A DNA stretch of 23,886 nucleotides from a virus. Positions 7,152 to 17,314 of the stretch are shown here, in pieces. The notes beneath the pieces are model-generated. The model did not search any database. It saw only the letters and a program-made list of their open reading frames with translations, and was not told the origin of the DNA. How positions within the stretch are numbered: position 1 is the stretch's first letter; each line of letters opens with the position of its first letter. The stretch covers positions 1 through 23,886 of the IMG/VR virus record IMGVR_UViG_3300005860_000066. The stretch is one strand, 5' to 3'. Both the position numbers and the translations under genes were made by a program.

Positions 7152-7345
7152 ACATCAAAGAAGTTATTAAAATTTTAGAAAAGATTTTAGGGTATTGTGG
7201 AAAGTGGGATGAAAATGATATTATTTCTGTTCAAAAGAAAACAGGGCATTGTGTTTCTATGAAAATTAAAACCTTTATAGGGCTATTGAAAATGGAGAGT
7301 AAATTATTAAAGGAAGGTCGCATTAAAAAAACATTAAAAAAATGA
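7148..7345 (+). CDS. Hypothetical protein, 65 aa
   Basis: ATGA overlap with the upstream stop suggests translational coupling. The protein is basic (MNIKEVIKILEKILGYCGKW at the start, ending GRIKKTLKK), with two cysteines and predicted helices. I do not recognise it. It lies between a membrane protein and an HTH protein in a run of overlapping genes. Confidence 0.55.
   Translation: MNIKEVIKILEKILGYCGKWDENDIISVQKKTGHCVSMKIKTFIGLLKMESKLLKEGRIKKTLKK
7317..7326 (+). promoter_or_regulatory. Start motif GTCGCATTAA for the first HTH gene
   Basis: A short form with one variable base. It ends 15 nt before ATG 7342 and lies inside the upstream gene, encoding part of its GRIKK tail. Confidence 0.75.
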
Positions 7346-7617
7346 AACTTCAAATCTTTTTAGAGGATGCGGGAAGGCCAGTTGCTTATTATCCTAAATT
7401 AGCAAAGTTTTTAGGGTCGGTAAATTCAGCAATCTTTCTATGCACTTATTGGGGAATAAAAGAATTTTCTAAGACTTCAAAAGAAATTGAGAAAGAAACT
7501 GGATTAACTTATAAACAGCAAAAGTTAGCAAGGAAAATATTGAAAGAAAGAGGATATTTAACAGAAAAGCGCGAGGGAATTCCACCCATAATTCATTATT
7601 CCATTAAATGGGGATAG
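7342..7617 (+). CDS. Winged-helix DNA-binding protein, 91 aa
   Basis: A compact protein whose middle reads TSKEIEKETGLTYKQQKLARKILKERGYLTEKREG. This is a typical winged helix: helix, turn at TGLT, a recognition helix with QQKLARKIL, and a beta-wing. Similar small domains occur in phage replication initiators and regulators. The N-terminus (LAKFLGSVNSAIFLCTYWGI) also resembles initiator N-terminal helices. It directly precedes the second, larger HTH gene and the putative origin, so a replication or regulatory role is likely. ATG 7342 overlaps the upstream stop and has the start motif. Confidence 0.65.
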   Translation: MKLQIFLEDAGRPVAYYPKLAKFLGSVNSAIFLCTYWGIKEFSKTSKEIEKETGLTYKQQKLARKILKERGYLTEKREGIPPIIHYSIKWG

Positions 7618-7658: not shown

Positions 7659-8396
7659 ATGGAAGAAGATATTCAAAAAAGTTTTTGGGCATTTATACCC
7701 TCTATGGCATTATCTGATAAAAATCTATGTTCTACAGAAAAATTGATGTTAGCAGAAATCTATTCTCTTGCTAATCAATATGGAATTTGTTACCCTTCTA
7801 ATAAACATTTTGCAGATTTATTCGATATTTCTGAAAGACTTGTAAGAAGATATCTTGCCCATTTACAAAAAGAAGGATGGATAGAAATAATATTAGAAGA
7901 AGGCTATAAACGAGTTATAAGAATTAACTTCTCCCCCCTGGATGATAAATTGAGAAATGGATACAAAAAGGTAAAGGGGGGGAGGAACTATAGTTCCGGG
8001 GGGGAGGAAATAAAGTTCCGGGGGGGAGGAACTATAGTTCCCCATAGAAATACATATAGAAATACATATAGAAATACACATAAAATATGTAATGAAACTA
8101 AGAAATCCCAAGCCGGTAGTGATAGCAAAAAAGAGAATATTCCATTAAAAGAAGAAATTGAAAAAAATACTGTTATTTGCAGTATTTGCCATCGAAGAGT
8201 GTTAAAAAGTAATGCTTTCGAGTTTTCTAAGGGAAAATACAAGTGTTCTGACTGCTTTAGAAGGGATATTGTAAAGAAAAAAGAAAAATTATTGGCTCGG
8301 CAGATTGTTCCTCCCCAAGAGCGGGCTGAAATGGAGGAAAAGATTGCTCGCTTGGAAAGAGATTTAAAAGCAGGTAAAAAGGTTGGAATTAAATAA
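7659..8396 (+). CDS. Replication-initiator-like protein: HTH domain, repeat linker, zinc ribbon
   Basis: A 245-residue protein. Residues 1-95 resemble the helix-turn-helix domain of phage and plasmid replication proteins (HTH_36 type): STEKLMLAEIYSLANQYGIC, then the recognition region FADLFDISERLVRRYLAHLQKEGWI. Residues 106-140 are a low-complexity linker (GGRNYSSGG, then RNTYRNTYRNT) encoded by two tandem repeat sets. Residues 174-199 form a zinc ribbon with CSIC and CSDC pairs, followed by a charged coiled coil (ERAEMEEKIARLERDLKAG). This matches lambda O: DNA-binding N-domain, origin within the gene, and a C-part that would contact helicase or loader. The last point is inference. A transcription-regulator role is the main alternative. 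Confidence 0.7.
   Translation: MEEDIQKSFWAFIPSMALSDKNLCSTEKLMLAEIYSLANQYGICYPSNKHFADLFDISERLVRRYLAHLQKEGWIEIILEEGYKRVIRINFSPLDDKLRNGYKKVKGGRNYSSGGEEIKFRGGGTIVPHRNTYRNTYRNTHKICNETKKSQAGSDSKKENIPLKEEIEKNTVICSICHRRVLKSNAFEFSKGKYKCSDCFRRDIVKKKEKLLARQIVPPQERAEMEEKIARLERDLKAGKKVGIK
7976..8041 (+). repeat. Three tandem 22-bp iterons
   Basis: Each unit is seven Gs followed by AGGAACTATAGTTCC. Units at 7976-7997 and 8020-8041 are identical; the middle one (7998-8019) has two substitutions that break its palindrome. Each perfect unit holds the 14-bp palindrome GGAACTATAGTTCC. The 22-bp period is about two helical turns and is not a multiple of three, so each copy is read in a different frame; the conservation is of DNA, not protein. 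Confidence 0.9.
8044..8079 (+). repeat. Three tandem AT-rich 12-mers
   Basis: ATAGAAATACAT is repeated three times with one change in the last base pair of the third copy, starting two bases after the iterons. It encodes RNTY-RNTY-RNTH. AT-rich 12- or 13-mers next to initiator sites are typical DNA-unwinding elements. Confidence 0.9.
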
Positions 8397-8545: not shown

Positions 8546-8555
8546 GGGAGGTGAT
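8546..8555 (+). promoter_or_regulatory. Shine-Dalgarno GGGAGGTGAT
   Basis: Near-perfect complement of the 16S 3' end. It places the start at ATG 8560; the in-frame GTG at 8551 is inside the binding site and so is not the start. Confidence 0.85.
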
Positions 8556-8559
8556 AAGA

Positions 8560-9213
8560 ATGTTGAATAAACTCCTTGCAGACTATTGCAGGAAGGTGTA
8601 TCTATCTGGACATTCAGAACCAGTCCAGATAGGTGTGTATCGTCCATCTGTCTTATCCTGGTCCTGTATCAGGAAGCAGTGGAATTACTACAAATTCTTA
8701 TCTGGGAAAAAAGCAGAGGAAATCCCAGATGATATTATCCTCTTGCTTGCAGGCGGAGTAGTATTCCACCGCTTGATACAAGGACTAAAAGATGAACAAG
8801 GAAGACCTTACTGGGATAAGACAGAGATTGAATGCTCCATAGAAGTTAATGTTGCAGGAGGAGAAAAGATTAAAATCATAGGACACGCTGATGCTATAAG
8901 AGGAAAAGGAATGGATAAAATAGTCTACGAGTTTAAGCATGTTAGGCAACTTCCTAACAAGCCACAATTCCCGCATCTCCTGCAACTAAACTTCTATTTA
9001 GGAGCATTGGGTGTTAATAGGGGAAGCTTGCTTTATGTAGGATATCTTCCTCATGGGGGTTTGGCTGTTAAAGAGTTTGGCTGGCTTTATTCAAACTGGC
9101 ACATGGAACATTTAATTGCAAGGGCACAGATGTTGCATACCTTGTTAATCCACAATGAGGCTCCTCGCTGTAGTTGTAAAAATAGAGTTCACGAACTCGG
9201 ACAACTAATTTAA
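8560..9213 (+). CDS. Cas4-like PD-(D/E)XK nuclease
   Basis: A 217-residue protein with the Cas4/RecB-type nuclease order: C36 in SWSCIRKQWNYYK, H70 in GGVVFHRLIQG, D111 in IGHADAIRG, E124 and K126 in VYEFKHV, and Q142 in LLQLNFYLG. Two C-terminal cysteines sit at 204 and 206 (CSCKNR). Typical Cas4 proteins use one N-terminal and three C-terminal cysteines for an iron-sulfur cluster; here only two C-terminal ones are seen, so the cluster is doubtful. The chemistry would be metal-dependent DNA cleavage. No cas1, cas2 or CRISPR array is present. The gene is richer in GC-ending codons than its neighbours, uses a Shine-Dalgarno site and is co-transcribed with the protease. It may serve recombination, or be defence or anti-defence; context favours an acquired accessory role. 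Confidence 0.75.
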   Translation: MLNKLLADYCRKVYLSGHSEPVQIGVYRPSVLSWSCIRKQWNYYKFLSGKKAEEIPDDIILLLAGGVVFHRLIQGLKDEQGRPYWDKTEIECSIEVNVAGGEKIKIIGHADAIRGKGMDKIVYEFKHVRQLPNKPQFPHLLQLNFYLGALGVNRGSLLYVGYLPHGGLAVKEFGWLYSNWHMEHLIARAQMLHTLLIHNEAPRCSCKNRVHELGQLI

Positions 9214-9222
9214 GGAGGTGAT
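9212..9222 (+). promoter_or_regulatory. Shine-Dalgarno AAGGAGGTGAT
   Basis: It overlaps the nuclease stop codon and sets the protease start at ATG 9227, eight bases after AGGAGG; GTG 9218 and ATG 9221 lie in or too close to the site. Confidence 0.85.
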
Positions 9223-9226
9223 GAAA

Positions 9227-9952
9227 ATGTTGTTGACTCGATGCTCTAAACGCGGGATTGTATTGCATAAGGTGGGAAAAATCAAAGATGTGGAGATGAG
9301 GGCAGTGAGAGGAATAAGACCCTTTATTTTTGTAAGGGAGCAGAATAAGGTTATGGACTATCCAATCCCAACGCCGCATTTACTTCCACTTCCATTCAGA
9401 CGCTTCTGCTGTTTTATAGGAGTTGCGACCCCAGAAGGAACTTGGTTAGGTTCAGGAGTTCTAACAGAGTTGGGAATTATCTCGGCCTTTCACTTGTTTC
9501 GATATCCGCGCATAGAAGAGGCTTGGGCTACATTCATCCTGGAGAATGGAACACTGACAAGTTTCAATCTTTACGATGTCTTAGCAGAAGAACCATCACA
9601 GGATTTCATAATTCTACTCCCACCACACCTATCTGGATACTTCAAACCAGTTAAGCTTGGATGGTATAGTCACGTTCCTTTCAACAAAAAGCACATTGTG
9701 GGATTTGGATGTCCAGAAGGTCTGTTAGGAACTATCTGGAGGCCGGAATATGTTGCATCAGATAACTACATGCTTTACACCAAAGGCTTTGCTTGCGGTG
9801 GAGTTTCAGGAGGAGGAATGTTCACTCTCTATAACAATGAATGGTATCTATGGGCAATCAACTCGGTTTACTTCCTTCAGTCTCGAACACTGATTTCCAG
9901 AATGGTAAGATTCAAGGAAAGGAAAACAGGGCGGAGAAAACCCACGAGATAA
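9227..9952 (+). CDS. Trypsin-like serine protease
   Basis: A 241-residue protein with the trypsin-fold triad in the right order and spacing: H89 in GIISAFHLF, D126 in EPSQDFIILLP, and S194 in GFACGGVSGGGMF (GxSGG). The strand before the histidine (GVATPEGTWLGSGVLTE) is the usual one for trypsin-like and S1C/HtrA-like cores. There is no signal peptide and no PDZ domain, so it likely acts in the cytoplasm. Its only partner is the upstream Cas4-like nuclease, 13 nt away. Trypsin-like domains joined or linked to nucleases are known in bacterial conflict systems, which makes a defence or superinfection-exclusion role plausible; prohead maturation is the main alternative but it lies far from the head genes. 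Base composition and ribosome site differ from the phage norm. Confidence 0.75.
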   Translation: MLLTRCSKRGIVLHKVGKIKDVEMRAVRGIRPFIFVREQNKVMDYPIPTPHLLPLPFRRFCCFIGVATPEGTWLGSGVLTELGIISAFHLFRYPRIEEAWATFILENGTLTSFNLYDVLAEEPSQDFIILLPPHLSGYFKPVKLGWYSHVPFNKKHIVGFGCPEGLLGTIWRPEYVASDNYMLYTKGFACGGVSGGGMFTLYNNEWYLWAINSVYFLQSRTLISRMVRFKERKTGRRKPTR

Positions 9953-11129: not shown

Positions 11130-11277
11130 ATTGCCTTATAGAACAGTTTATTATCTGTTGAAAAAATTTGGTATCAAGACAATACAATATGGAGTTAGAA
11201 ATAAAAAATATGATTTCAATCAATTCTTGTCGGAATTAAAAAAGAATTATCCAAAATGGGAAATAAAAGATATATAG
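11083..11277 (+). CDS. HTH excisionase/MerR-like DNA-binding protein, 64 aa
   Basis: The sequence LTLKEIQGKTKLPYRTVYYLLKKFGIKTIQYGVRNKKYDFNQFLSEL, described here in pieces, matches the HTH_17 or excisionase type: helix LTLKEIQ, helix-turn-helix LPYRTVYYLLKKF, then a wing and the YDFNQFLSEL strand-helix. Such proteins act as small DNA-bending or regulatory factors. It overlaps its neighbours by 47 and 22 bases. It could regulate this operon or serve in excision, but no integrase is seen. Confidence 0.65.
   Translation: MENNFLTLKEIQGKTKLPYRTVYYLLKKFGIKTIQYGVRNKKYDFNQFLSELKKNYPKWEIKDI
11229..11239 (+). promoter_or_regulatory. Start motif GTCGGAATTAA for the resolvase gene
   Basis: It encodes LSEL in the HTH gene and ends 16 nt before ATG 11256. 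Confidence 0.75.
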
Positions 11278-11672
11278 CAGGCAGAAATTTTGAGTATAAG
11301 ATTAAAAAATGGTTTGAGAAAGATGGGTCAATTGTAATCAGAAGTGCGGGTTCACATTCTATGTTTGACTTGGTTGTTCTTTCTCCTTCAACAGATTTAT
11401 GGAGAATTGAGTTTTGGCAATTAAAAAAGAATACAACAGAAGAGGAAGTGATTAAGATTATAAGAGAAATAGGGGAAAAATTAAATTTAAAAGAAGATGT
11501 TATTATGAATTTTGAGGAATACGAATTGATACCCTCCTCAAAAACAAAAGTTGCATATCTTCAAAAATTGGGAGGTTTTTATACTAGCGGAATAAAAATT
11601 ACATTAAGATTTGGTGTAATTTATACGCTTAAAAAGAAAAATGAAAGACGCAATAAAAAAGTTTCTAAATAA
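11256..11672 (+). CDS. Holliday-junction-resolvase-like nuclease (Hjc type)
   Basis: A 138-residue protein with the order seen in Hjc-type PD-(D/E)XK enzymes: GRNFEYKIKKWFEKDG (first acidic residue, Glu in FEYK), VIRSAGSHSMFDLVVLSP (the R-S-A-G-S loop and the catalytic Asp in FDLVV), then RIEFWQLKK. The last motif would be E-x-K in the canonical family; here it is E-F-W-Q-L-K-K, so the lysine is shifted or replaced by Gln, as some relatives do. The role would be cleavage of four-way junctions during phage recombination or packaging. The C-terminus is very basic (KKKNERRNKKVSK). The start is set by the motif at 11229. Confidence 0.6.
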   Translation: MGNKRYIAGRNFEYKIKKWFEKDGSIVIRSAGSHSMFDLVVLSPSTDLWRIEFWQLKKNTTEEEVIKIIREIGEKLNLKEDVIMNFEEYELIPSSKTKVAYLQKLGGFYTSGIKITLRFGVIYTLKKKNERRNKKVSK

Positions 11673-14607: not shown

Positions 14608-14640
14608 AAAAATCAAAGAAAAATCAAAGAAAAATCAAAG
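14608..14640 (+). repeat. Three tandem 11-mers in a leader
   Basis: AAAAATCAAAG (with AATCAAAG as core at 14611, 14622 and 14633) repeats exactly at period 11 between start motif and gene. Removing two copies would give a 20-nt spacer, so a recent tandem expansion is likely. Confidence 0.8.
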
Positions 14641-14649
14641 AATTTAAAA

Positions 14650-14973
14650 ATGAGAACTGAAAAACAATTAGCAAATTTAAAAAAATTTAAGAAAGGACAA
14701 TCAGGAAATCCAGCAGGAAAACCAAAAGGAACTTTAAGTTATAAAACAATATTCAATTTAGCAGCAAAAGAAGTTGCAAAAAAATTAAAACTAGGAGAAG
14801 AACCAGAAGACTTTTTAAAAACTCTCTTAATAGTAGGAGCAAAAAAAGGATTATCAGGCAATTATGCATTTTATAAGGATATTCTTGATAGATTATTTGG
14901 ACAAGCAAAGCAAATAATAGAAACCGAAGAAAAAAGAATTTTAATTTTAGACAAAGAAGATGAAAAAGAATAA
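14650..14973 (+). CDS. DUF5681-domain protein (candidate small terminase)
   Basis: The first 35 residues hold FKKGQSGNPAGKPKGTLSYK, the hallmark of DUF5681, a domain widespread in phage genes next to terminase. The rest is helical (KTIFNLAAKEVAKKLKLGEE, FYKDILDRLFGQAKQIIETE). At 107 residues it fits a DNA-recognition partner for packaging. Its position three genes before the large terminase and behind a strong promoter supports a small-terminase-like role, but this is by context; the domain itself has no assigned activity. Confidence 0.65.
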   Translation: MRTEKQLANLKKFKKGQSGNPAGKPKGTLSYKTIFNLAAKEVAKKLKLGEEPEDFLKTLLIVGAKKGLSGNYAFYKDILDRLFGQAKQIIETEEKRILILDKEDEKE

Positions 14974-15994: not shown

Positions 15995-17314
15995 ATGGAA
16001 AAAGTAAGTTTTCAAAAGTTAGCAAACTTTACACCAAAACAAAAACTTTTTTTAGAATTAGTGAAAAACTATAGATATACGCTGTTAAGTGGAGTTGTTG
16101 GAACTGGGAAATCAAGATGTTTAAGATGGACTTTGTTATATCTCCTCTTAAAATACGCTTCTAAAGGCTATACAGGCTTACAAGCAGGCTTATTTTGTAA
16201 TACATATCCAGAATTAAATGATAGGCATTTGAAATATATTAAACAAGAATTTCCTAATTGGTTAGGAACTTATAATGAACAAAAACACGAATTTAGATTA
16301 TTTGAAGAATACGGAGGTGGAATATTAGCATTTAGAAACCTTGACGAACCTATGAACTACCGCTCCGTGGAATTTGCTTTTATAGGAGTAGACGAATTAA
16401 CACAAATTCCTAAAGAAACTTTTGATATTTTGATAGAAAGAAATAGATGGGCAGGATTAAAAGATGTTAAATTTATAGCAGCATCTAATCCGGTTGGACC
16501 ATATAAAGAATGGGTAAGAAGACTATTTATTGAAAAACAATTAGAAAATTCCGCAGTTTTATATCTTTATAAGGGTGATAATCCATATTTACCAGAAAAC
16601 TATTATGAGGAATTGGCTAAAAATATGGATGAACCATTAAAAAAGGCTTTACTTGAAGGTGATTGGTATGCTTTAGATGATATACAAGACAAAGAAGGCT
16701 ATTTACCCCTATTGACATCAAAACAATTAAATGATGCAATTATAGACTATCAATATACCTTTGATACTGCAGTTTTAGGAATAGATCCAGGAGCAGGAGG
16801 AGATAACACAACAATTGTTATAAGAGATAATTCAATAGCAAAAATTCTATTCAATAAACAACTTTCTGATACTATGCAAATCTTACCTTTAATAGCAGAT
16901 TATTATCAAAAATATAGGCTTTATGGGATTGTTATAGATATCACAGGAATTGGAAAAGGAATTTATGATAGACTAAATGAAATAGGCTTATTTTTAAAAA
17001 CTTTAGGAATATCTTTTGGACAAAAAGCAGAGGAACCAAATAGATTTTTCAATAAAAAAGCAGAACTATTTTGGAAATTAAGAGAATGGATTTTAAAAGG
17101 AGGAAAACTTTTAAAAGATAATGGATGGAATGAGTTATTGGAAATCAAATATAAGCATCAATCTGATAAAGTTATTAGAATTCAACCCAAAGAAGAACTA
17201 TTGAAAAAAGGTATAAAATCTCCTAATGTTGCTGATGCATTAGCCTTGACATTTGCAATAGATTTAGAACAATTACAGCAATTAAAACAATTTGAAATAT
17301 ATGAAATCTATTGA
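15995..17314 (+). CDS. terL: Terminase large subunit
   Basis: A 439-residue packaging motor and nuclease. The ATPase domain has Walker A GVVGTGKS at 33-40, Walker B FAFIGVDE at 127-134 (D133, E134) and the coupling motif AASNP at 162-166. The RNase H-like nuclease has D264 in LGIDPGAGGD, D315 in IVIDITGIG and D414 in SPNVADALAL, the three metal-binding acids in order. Length and motif spacing fit the Terminase_6 type fold. It drives DNA into proheads through the portal and cuts the concatemer. It has its own promoter. Confidence 0.93.
   Translation: MEKVSFQKLANFTPKQKLFLELVKNYRYTLLSGVVGTGKSRCLRWTLLYLLLKYASKGYTGLQAGLFCNTYPELNDRHLKYIKQEFPNWLGTYNEQKHEFRLFEEYGGGILAFRNLDEPMNYRSVEFAFIGVDELTQIPKETFDILIERNRWAGLKDVKFIAASNPVGPYKEWVRRLFIEKQLENSAVLYLYKGDNPYLPENYYEELAKNMDEPLKKALLEGDWYALDDIQDKEGYLPLLTSKQLNDAIIDYQYTFDTAVLGIDPGAGGDNTTIVIRDNSIAKILFNKQLSDTMQILPLIADYYQKYRLYGIVIDITGIGKGIYDRLNEIGLFLKTLGISFGQKAEEPNRFFNKKAELFWKLREWILKGGKLLKDNGWNELLEIKYKHQSDKVIRIQPKEELLKKGIKSPNVADALALTFAIDLEQLQQLKQFEIYEIY

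Follow-up and report, generated by a model that had tools for sequence, protein, structure and literature searches.

The window analysed here, the entire IMG/VR record IMGVR_UViG_3300005860_000066 (23,886 bases, a linear fragment), in all likelihood contains an intragenic theta-type origin of replication of a tailed phage, located inside the linker of the phage's own replication initiator gene (7659-8396, + strand). Replication would start at the repeats within this gene. The origin was assigned to the class of intragenic origins because of its layout and of selection at the DNA level, and judged by its sequence it is very probably of the lambda-O/SPP1-gp38 kind, with an unusual zinc-ribbon C-terminus. 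The features observed for this are the repeats and their dyads, a repeat period out of frame with the codons, DNA-level conservation among homologues, covariation of iterons and helix-turn-helix (HTH) domain, and a linker that is disordered in the structure model. A terminase gene (15995-17314) as well as portal and major capsid genes were found in the window by family searches. The search for a host via the terminase in bacterial and archaeal genomes gave no hit.

Replication initiator gene and protein domains

The initiator gene encodes a protein of 245 aa. Its N-terminus matches PF13730 (HTH_36) at residues 22-75 with 35 bits (cut-off 25; E 1.2e-8), and the comparison with PHROG resulted in several families named replication initiation protein or O-like, the best being PHROG 270 (E 1.4e-18). 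A homologue was also found on the viral contig G005. According to these matches, the product is an HTH_36 phage replication initiator. The helix-turn-helix domain that the preliminary description had read before the repeats is thereby recognised by a family model, and the zinc ribbon placed after them could be located as a CxxC-x18-CxxC motif (C174, C177, C196 and C199; 8178-8255, + strand), whose four cysteines are kept in the G005 homologue and in the initiator of a sister phage. The C-terminal part with this zinc ribbon may be the region that recruits a partner.

The winged-helix DNA-binding domain (aa 15-89; 7701-7925, + strand) is well modelled by AlphaFold (blocks of pLDDT 83-96), and residues 102-160, a span including everything encoded by the repeat array and the AT-rich block, are without structure in the model. 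Winged-helix proteins, including the plasmid Rep-DNA complex 5kbj, and phage O-like proteins were matched by Foldseek, and a PDB sequence search with the initiator returned no match. Binding of the iterons by the winged helix is predicted from the covariation described below.

Iterons and AT-rich repeats

Three iterons of 22 bp are located in tandem at 7976-7997, 7998-8019 and 8020-8041 (+ strand) in the order GGGGGGGAGGAACTATAGTTCC, GGGGGGGAGGAAATAAAGTTCC, GGGGGGGAGGAACTATAGTTCC, copies 1 and 3 being identical. Each consists of a G7 run, an A and the dyad GGAACTATAGTTCC, which is perfect in copies 1 and 3 (7984-7997 and 8028-8041) and degenerate in copy 2 (GGAAATAAAGTTCC, 8006-8019). The array is the top-scoring tandem array in the window (TRF score 118), and G7 is confined to the three iterons on both strands of the whole window. 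The preliminary description, which had noted three 22-bp repeats, two of them identical, with G7 and a palindromic tail, is thus borne out. It had further described AT-rich 12-mers that start two bases after the array and end at 8079; the start at 8044 is correct, and the end has to be moved slightly, as TRF extends the run to 8087 (8044-8087, + strand; consensus ATAGAAATACAT, 3.8 copies, score 74). The word TAGAAATACA is present in three copies in this block, which is a putative unwinding element.

Since the period of 22 nt puts each copy in another reading frame, the residues encoded by the successive iterons do not repeat (GGRNYSS, GGEEIKFR and GGGTIVP), and the total of 66 nt preserves the frame. 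The translation into three different peptides agrees with the earlier statement that the period is out of frame with the codons. The self-match of the array at lag 22 scores 32. When the protein was recoded at random with synonymous codons according to phage codon usage, the maximum was 13 (500 trials); permuting the gene's own synonymous codons likewise gave no more than 13 (300), and codon shuffles no more than 14 (300). The 22-bp array is neither a product of chance nor explained by the protein.

Homologous initiator genes

In total, 11 homologues were read, which belong to phages of Lactococcus, Lactobacillus, Staphylococcus, Enterococcus, Lysinibacillus, Acetoanaerobium and Pseudomonas and to one faecal phage. 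A tandem array with a period of 22-24 follows immediately after the HTH domain in all 11, and in nine it is followed by a separate AT-rich array of 12 or 15 bp; the two exceptions, which gave no such second array, are the Pseudomonas phage Cruim01, which is GC-rich, and L015 from faeces. In the record of BK5-T, a repeat_region is annotated at the corresponding place. Dyads are present in most of the homologue arrays, e.g., TTGACGCAAATGTCAA and CTCCGCAATTTTGCGGAG. The window shares the arrangement of the homologues read, a 22-24-bp array and then an AT block in the linker. Hence the search for iterons in homologous genes, proposed as a check in the preliminary description, had a positive outcome, with DNA repeats found in the same linker.

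For a broader survey, 80 viral loci were collected, resulting in 78 initiator genes, of which 47 are nonredundant. TRF arrays with a period of 21-25 were detected in 30 of these 47 HTH_36 initiators, compared with a single one of the 189 other ORFs from these loci. Across the genes compared, the layout of iterons plus AT block is general in the HTH_36 initiator family and not unusual in itself. The following results were counted against the origin reading: TRF reported no array in 17 of the 47 nonredundant homologues; the iteron pattern of the window has no exact relative among the other viral contigs of the viral collection; no helicase or helicase loader was recognised when the window proteins were scanned against families, the record being a fragment; and the GC skew is positive across the entire fragment, a single sign that is uninformative on the replication start.

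In three Pseudomonas phages, phita81A (L108), UFJF_PfDIW6 (L110) and AF (L111), initiator-like genes with other N-termini were observed. The linker of phita81A contains GTCACGC repeats of ~10 bp, with purine-rich GA tracts following in both L108 and L110. These features suggest that origins of a different design occupy this slot in these phages.

A single-protein scan of viral contigs for close relatives found none. Contig G005 was reached via the neighbouring Cas4-like gene and holds the sole full-length initiator homologue found (37%, zinc ribbon with its four cysteines included). Its linker protein LEENLKTSLRKLKDPSLRKLKD is unrelated to GGRNYSSGGEEIKFRGGGTIVP of the window, but at the DNA level the linker contains the dyad TCTTTAAGAAAACTTAAAGA in three repeats, spaced 22 and 24 nt apart, and the ATAGAAATACATATA of the window comes after them here too; TAGAAATACA is present in one copy. 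The preliminary description had claimed that the DNA rather than the protein is conserved and had named a conserved protein linker lacking the DNA repeats as the contrary outcome. In G005, the reverse was found.

The sister phage G001 has a terminase with 90% to that of the window. The N-terminal domain of its initiator differs from that of the window and is recognised by no family. The plan of the gene is the same, with dyads of ~22 bp (GTTAACTCCAGTTAAC), AT-rich 15-mers carrying the word TAATACTATA and then a zinc ribbon, which matches the zinc ribbon of the window in blastp (28% over 46 aa, E 5e-4), the N-termini being otherwise unrelated. Because of this other N-terminal domain, the protein search with P0001 gave no match in the first sister records, and the sister initiator was located from ORFs and repeats. 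A core AACTNNAGTT is common to the window iterons and GTTAACTCCAGTTAAC of the sister phage. It is real but was found post hoc and was dropped; nothing was built on it because the nearer homologue G005 lacks this core.

The initiator genes of G001 and its relative L025 differ in 23% of the bases in the N-terminal domain and in 20% in the C-terminal domain. Among codons for identical residues, no synonymous change was found in the 22 codons of the iterons or the 18 of the AT block, compared with 59 of 114 in the N-terminal and 19 of 75 in the C-terminal domain. Pooled, this amounts to 0/40 codons in repeats and AT block vs. 78/189 elsewhere (Fisher 1.3e-8), where the AT block was delimited by the motif itself, which biases the Asn and Thr codon counts.

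A neutral tandem duplication by slippage in the disordered linker, having no DNA function, would account for two identical copies, as from a recent duplication, and disordered linkers tolerate insertions. It is nevertheless hardly credible, as unrelated repeats with the same 22-24-bp period and with dyads occupy the same place in the homologues, such arrays were found in only 1 of 189 control ORFs, and the synonymous sites are frozen between G001 and L025. In the window, dyad iterons and an adjoining AT-rich tract are located within the initiator coding sequence, and DNA-level selection independent of the protein is indicated by the same-protein recodings and by the synonymous sites, which are frozen in the sister lineage and in the family at large.

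Covariation of iterons and HTH domain

The similarity of the iterons correlates with that of the HTH domain when the C-terminus is controlled for (partial r 0.54, permutation p 0.001), and the partial r with the C-terminus, controlled for the HTH domain, is 0.03. Natural recombinants could be identified as well. L026 and L039 (and near copies) have the AT block and the C-terminus in common (98% identical), and both the HTH domain (63%) and the iterons differ. L076 and L079 have the HTH domain and the iterons in common, and the C-terminus differs (51%). As far as can be read from these pairs, the iterons move with their HTH domain in such exchanges, and in L026/L039 the AT block and the C-terminus stay in place. 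The covariation and the swaps in the homologues are most simply read as recognition of the iterons by the HTH domain. The natural swaps of HTH domain plus iterons provide matched pairs for questions of origin specificity. Since pooled pair counts include recombinants, which lower the C-terminal divergence, pairs with both flanks diverged and the G001/L025 comparison were relied upon.

Dyads bound by the HTH protein within its own gene would also fit an autoregulatory operator, by which the protein controls its own transcription while the origin is located elsewhere. A complex at this site could affect transcription, and in SPP1 a second origin lies away from the initiator gene (PMC6316719). 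However, the repeats lie 300 nt inside the gene and are followed by an AT-rich block in the homologues, promoter-like sites in the repeat region are no commoner than in shuffles, and the matched protein families are replication initiators. An operator in place of an origin is thus quite improbable.

The AT-rich block

In the survey, the AT block carries TAATAATACA or TAATACTACA, mostly at steps of 12 or 15 nt. At least two occurrences of AATACW in the linker were found in 26 of 29 clusters, compared with 1 of 51 control stretches taken from these genes. Related sequences were counted, so that pooled p-values overstate independence; the reduction to 29 clusters keeps the result.

In the homologues, successive AT repeats almost always stand a multiple of three nt apart (9, 12 or 15), and the word is in one frame in 102 of 103 cases, so that coding constrains or preserves it and a constraint on the protein is possible as a second factor. 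One explanation would be that the 12-mers of the AT block matter for the protein only, as a spacer rich in Asn and Thr, and that the iterons alone serve as DNA sites. This is unlikely in view of the near-fixed synonymous choice: for Asn in Asn-Thr pairs of the linker, taken at the protein level, AAT and AAC are used in a ratio of 125:1 vs. 627:237 elsewhere, and the Ile codons ATT and ATA in a ratio of 22:1 in the AT block vs. 272:221 elsewhere, which goes beyond mere AT-richness. Furthermore, the word is retained in the Pseudomonas phage Skulduggery, whose gene has a GC3 of 0.70, it is conserved at synonymous sites even where the iterons are unrelated, and the synonymous divergence is 0.08 in the AT block vs. 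0.49-0.54 in the flanking domains. In lambda, in-frame deletions of 12 and 15 bp in the AT tract are origin mutations, and the O protein still complements (PMC6022878).

The near-fixed codon choice and the word kept in GC-rich Skulduggery argue that the AT block is constrained as DNA, beyond its AT content. A possible, though rather doubtful, extension is that the block is no generic melting tract and instead a conserved sequence-specific element (TAATAATACA or TAATACTACA, in the window TAGAAATACA, at 12- or 15-nt steps), which would be read single- or double-stranded by a shared factor, iterons and HTH domain being lineage-specific. If this holds, the origin would consist of a private lock (iterons and HTH domain) and a common door (the AT word), recombining at their border. 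The conserved word bears on whether unwinding needs a specific sequence or merely weak base pairing. The literature searched contains no account of the AT word; as most subscription journals, including the main reviews of phage replication modules, were outside its coverage, the word is not claimed as new.

In the unwinding region of bacterial origins, DnaA-trios form an AT-rich element in triplet register beside duplex binding sites. A likeness to the AT block, whose register is also in triplets and whose TAATAATACA is readable as TAA-TAA-TAC, was seen by eye and is a lead only; unlike for DnaA, none of the families found for the window initiator is an AAA+ domain, and the triplet spacing is also explained by coding.

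Proposed mechanism and comparison with known origins

In the intragenic origin proposed here, dimers of the N-terminal winged helix would bind the three 22-bp dyad iterons, which would face one side of the DNA because they are about two helical turns apart. The assembled complex would strain and open the adjoining AT-rich tract (8044-8087), and the C-terminal zinc ribbon with its helical tail would then recruit the host replicative helicase or loader. This recruitment we infer, since the family scan of the window proteins recognised neither a loader nor a helicase. The disordered linker is expected to tolerate almost any residues, and its DNA can therefore evolve as a binding site.

In lambda and Stx phages, dyad iterons and an AT-rich tract are located in the middle of gene O (PMC7466680; PMC6022878). 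As in the window, the gene encodes an N-terminal DNA-binding domain, and the unwinding tract follows directly after the iterons. Unlike the window, lambda has four hyphenated dyads of 18-19 bp, a 39-bp AT tract and the dedicated loader P, whereas the iterons of the window are three units of 22 bp that carry G7, its AT tract is made of tandem 12-mers, its initiator has a zinc-ribbon C-terminus, and a loader gene was not recognised in the fragment. No gene recognised as a helicase loader adjoins the initiator, whose downstream neighbours are a Cas4-like nuclease gene and a gene whose product matches no family; the loader may be host-encoded or located outside the fragment. By analogy, the window would function like the lambda ori, and it is not a lambda O-P module. 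The lambda-like layout of initiator plus origin, proposed in the preliminary description, gained support from the comparative predictions, i.e., the linker repeats, the frozen synonymous sites and the covariation of iterons and HTH domain.

The oriL of the Bacillus phage SPP1 is located in gene 38, which encodes its binding protein gp38 (PMC6316719). Direct repeats and an AT-rich unwinding element within the gene of the origin-binding protein are common to SPP1 and the window, and the likeness is one of layout: the loader gp39, the helicase gp40 and the second origin oriR of SPP1 have no recognised counterpart in the fragment. The HTH_36 initiators of phages from Firmicutes, from Pseudomonas and from marine sources (BK5-T, c5 and Skulduggery among others) have a homologous winged helix, a 22-24-bp array and an AT block with the AATACA word in the same order. 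The window differs from them in its GAAATACAT units, compared with their AATAATACA, and in its zinc ribbon, which is absent from the C-termini of the other isolates read. An uncultured phage lineage with zinc-ribbon initiators would thereby join the known class of self-contained initiator-plus-origin modules. From sequence alone, such origins should be recognisable by three features: the linker holds a 22-24-bp array, the AT word comes after it, and the synonymous sites are frozen.

Further observations in the window and its relatives

Directly upstream of the initiator, a 91-aa ORF (7342-7617) matches the N-terminal part of the O-like phrog_9773 (E 1.3e-17). It encodes a second winged-helix protein that has neither the repeats nor the C-terminal part and is perhaps a regulator or the remnant of a replaced initiator. 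Downstream of the initiator (8551-9952), a Cas4/PD-(D/E)XK-like nuclease (phrog_1706, E 4.6e-11) is followed by a gene whose product has no family match and carries a GVSGGG serine-protease-like motif. This gene pair is kept in G001 and L114 and is inverted relative to the lysin gene in G001. A weak match to Hjc-like Holliday-junction resolvases (E 0.044) was obtained at 11256-11672, with counterparts beside the Cas4-like gene in G001 and L114.

The terminase ORF of the sister phage (L009:6425-9814, - strand; 1129 aa) contains two intein-like insertions, and another one was found in L114:9487-11868 (- strand), a homologue of the window gene at 1062-2585. These insertions are absent from the window copies of both genes.

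Perfect 11-bp repeats (AAAAATCAAAG, 3.2 copies, TRF score 70) are located in an AT-rich stretch at 14608-14642. They directly precede a small gene at 14650, whose counterpart neighbours the initiator gene in G001 and G005, and could represent a second origin or a packaging-related site.
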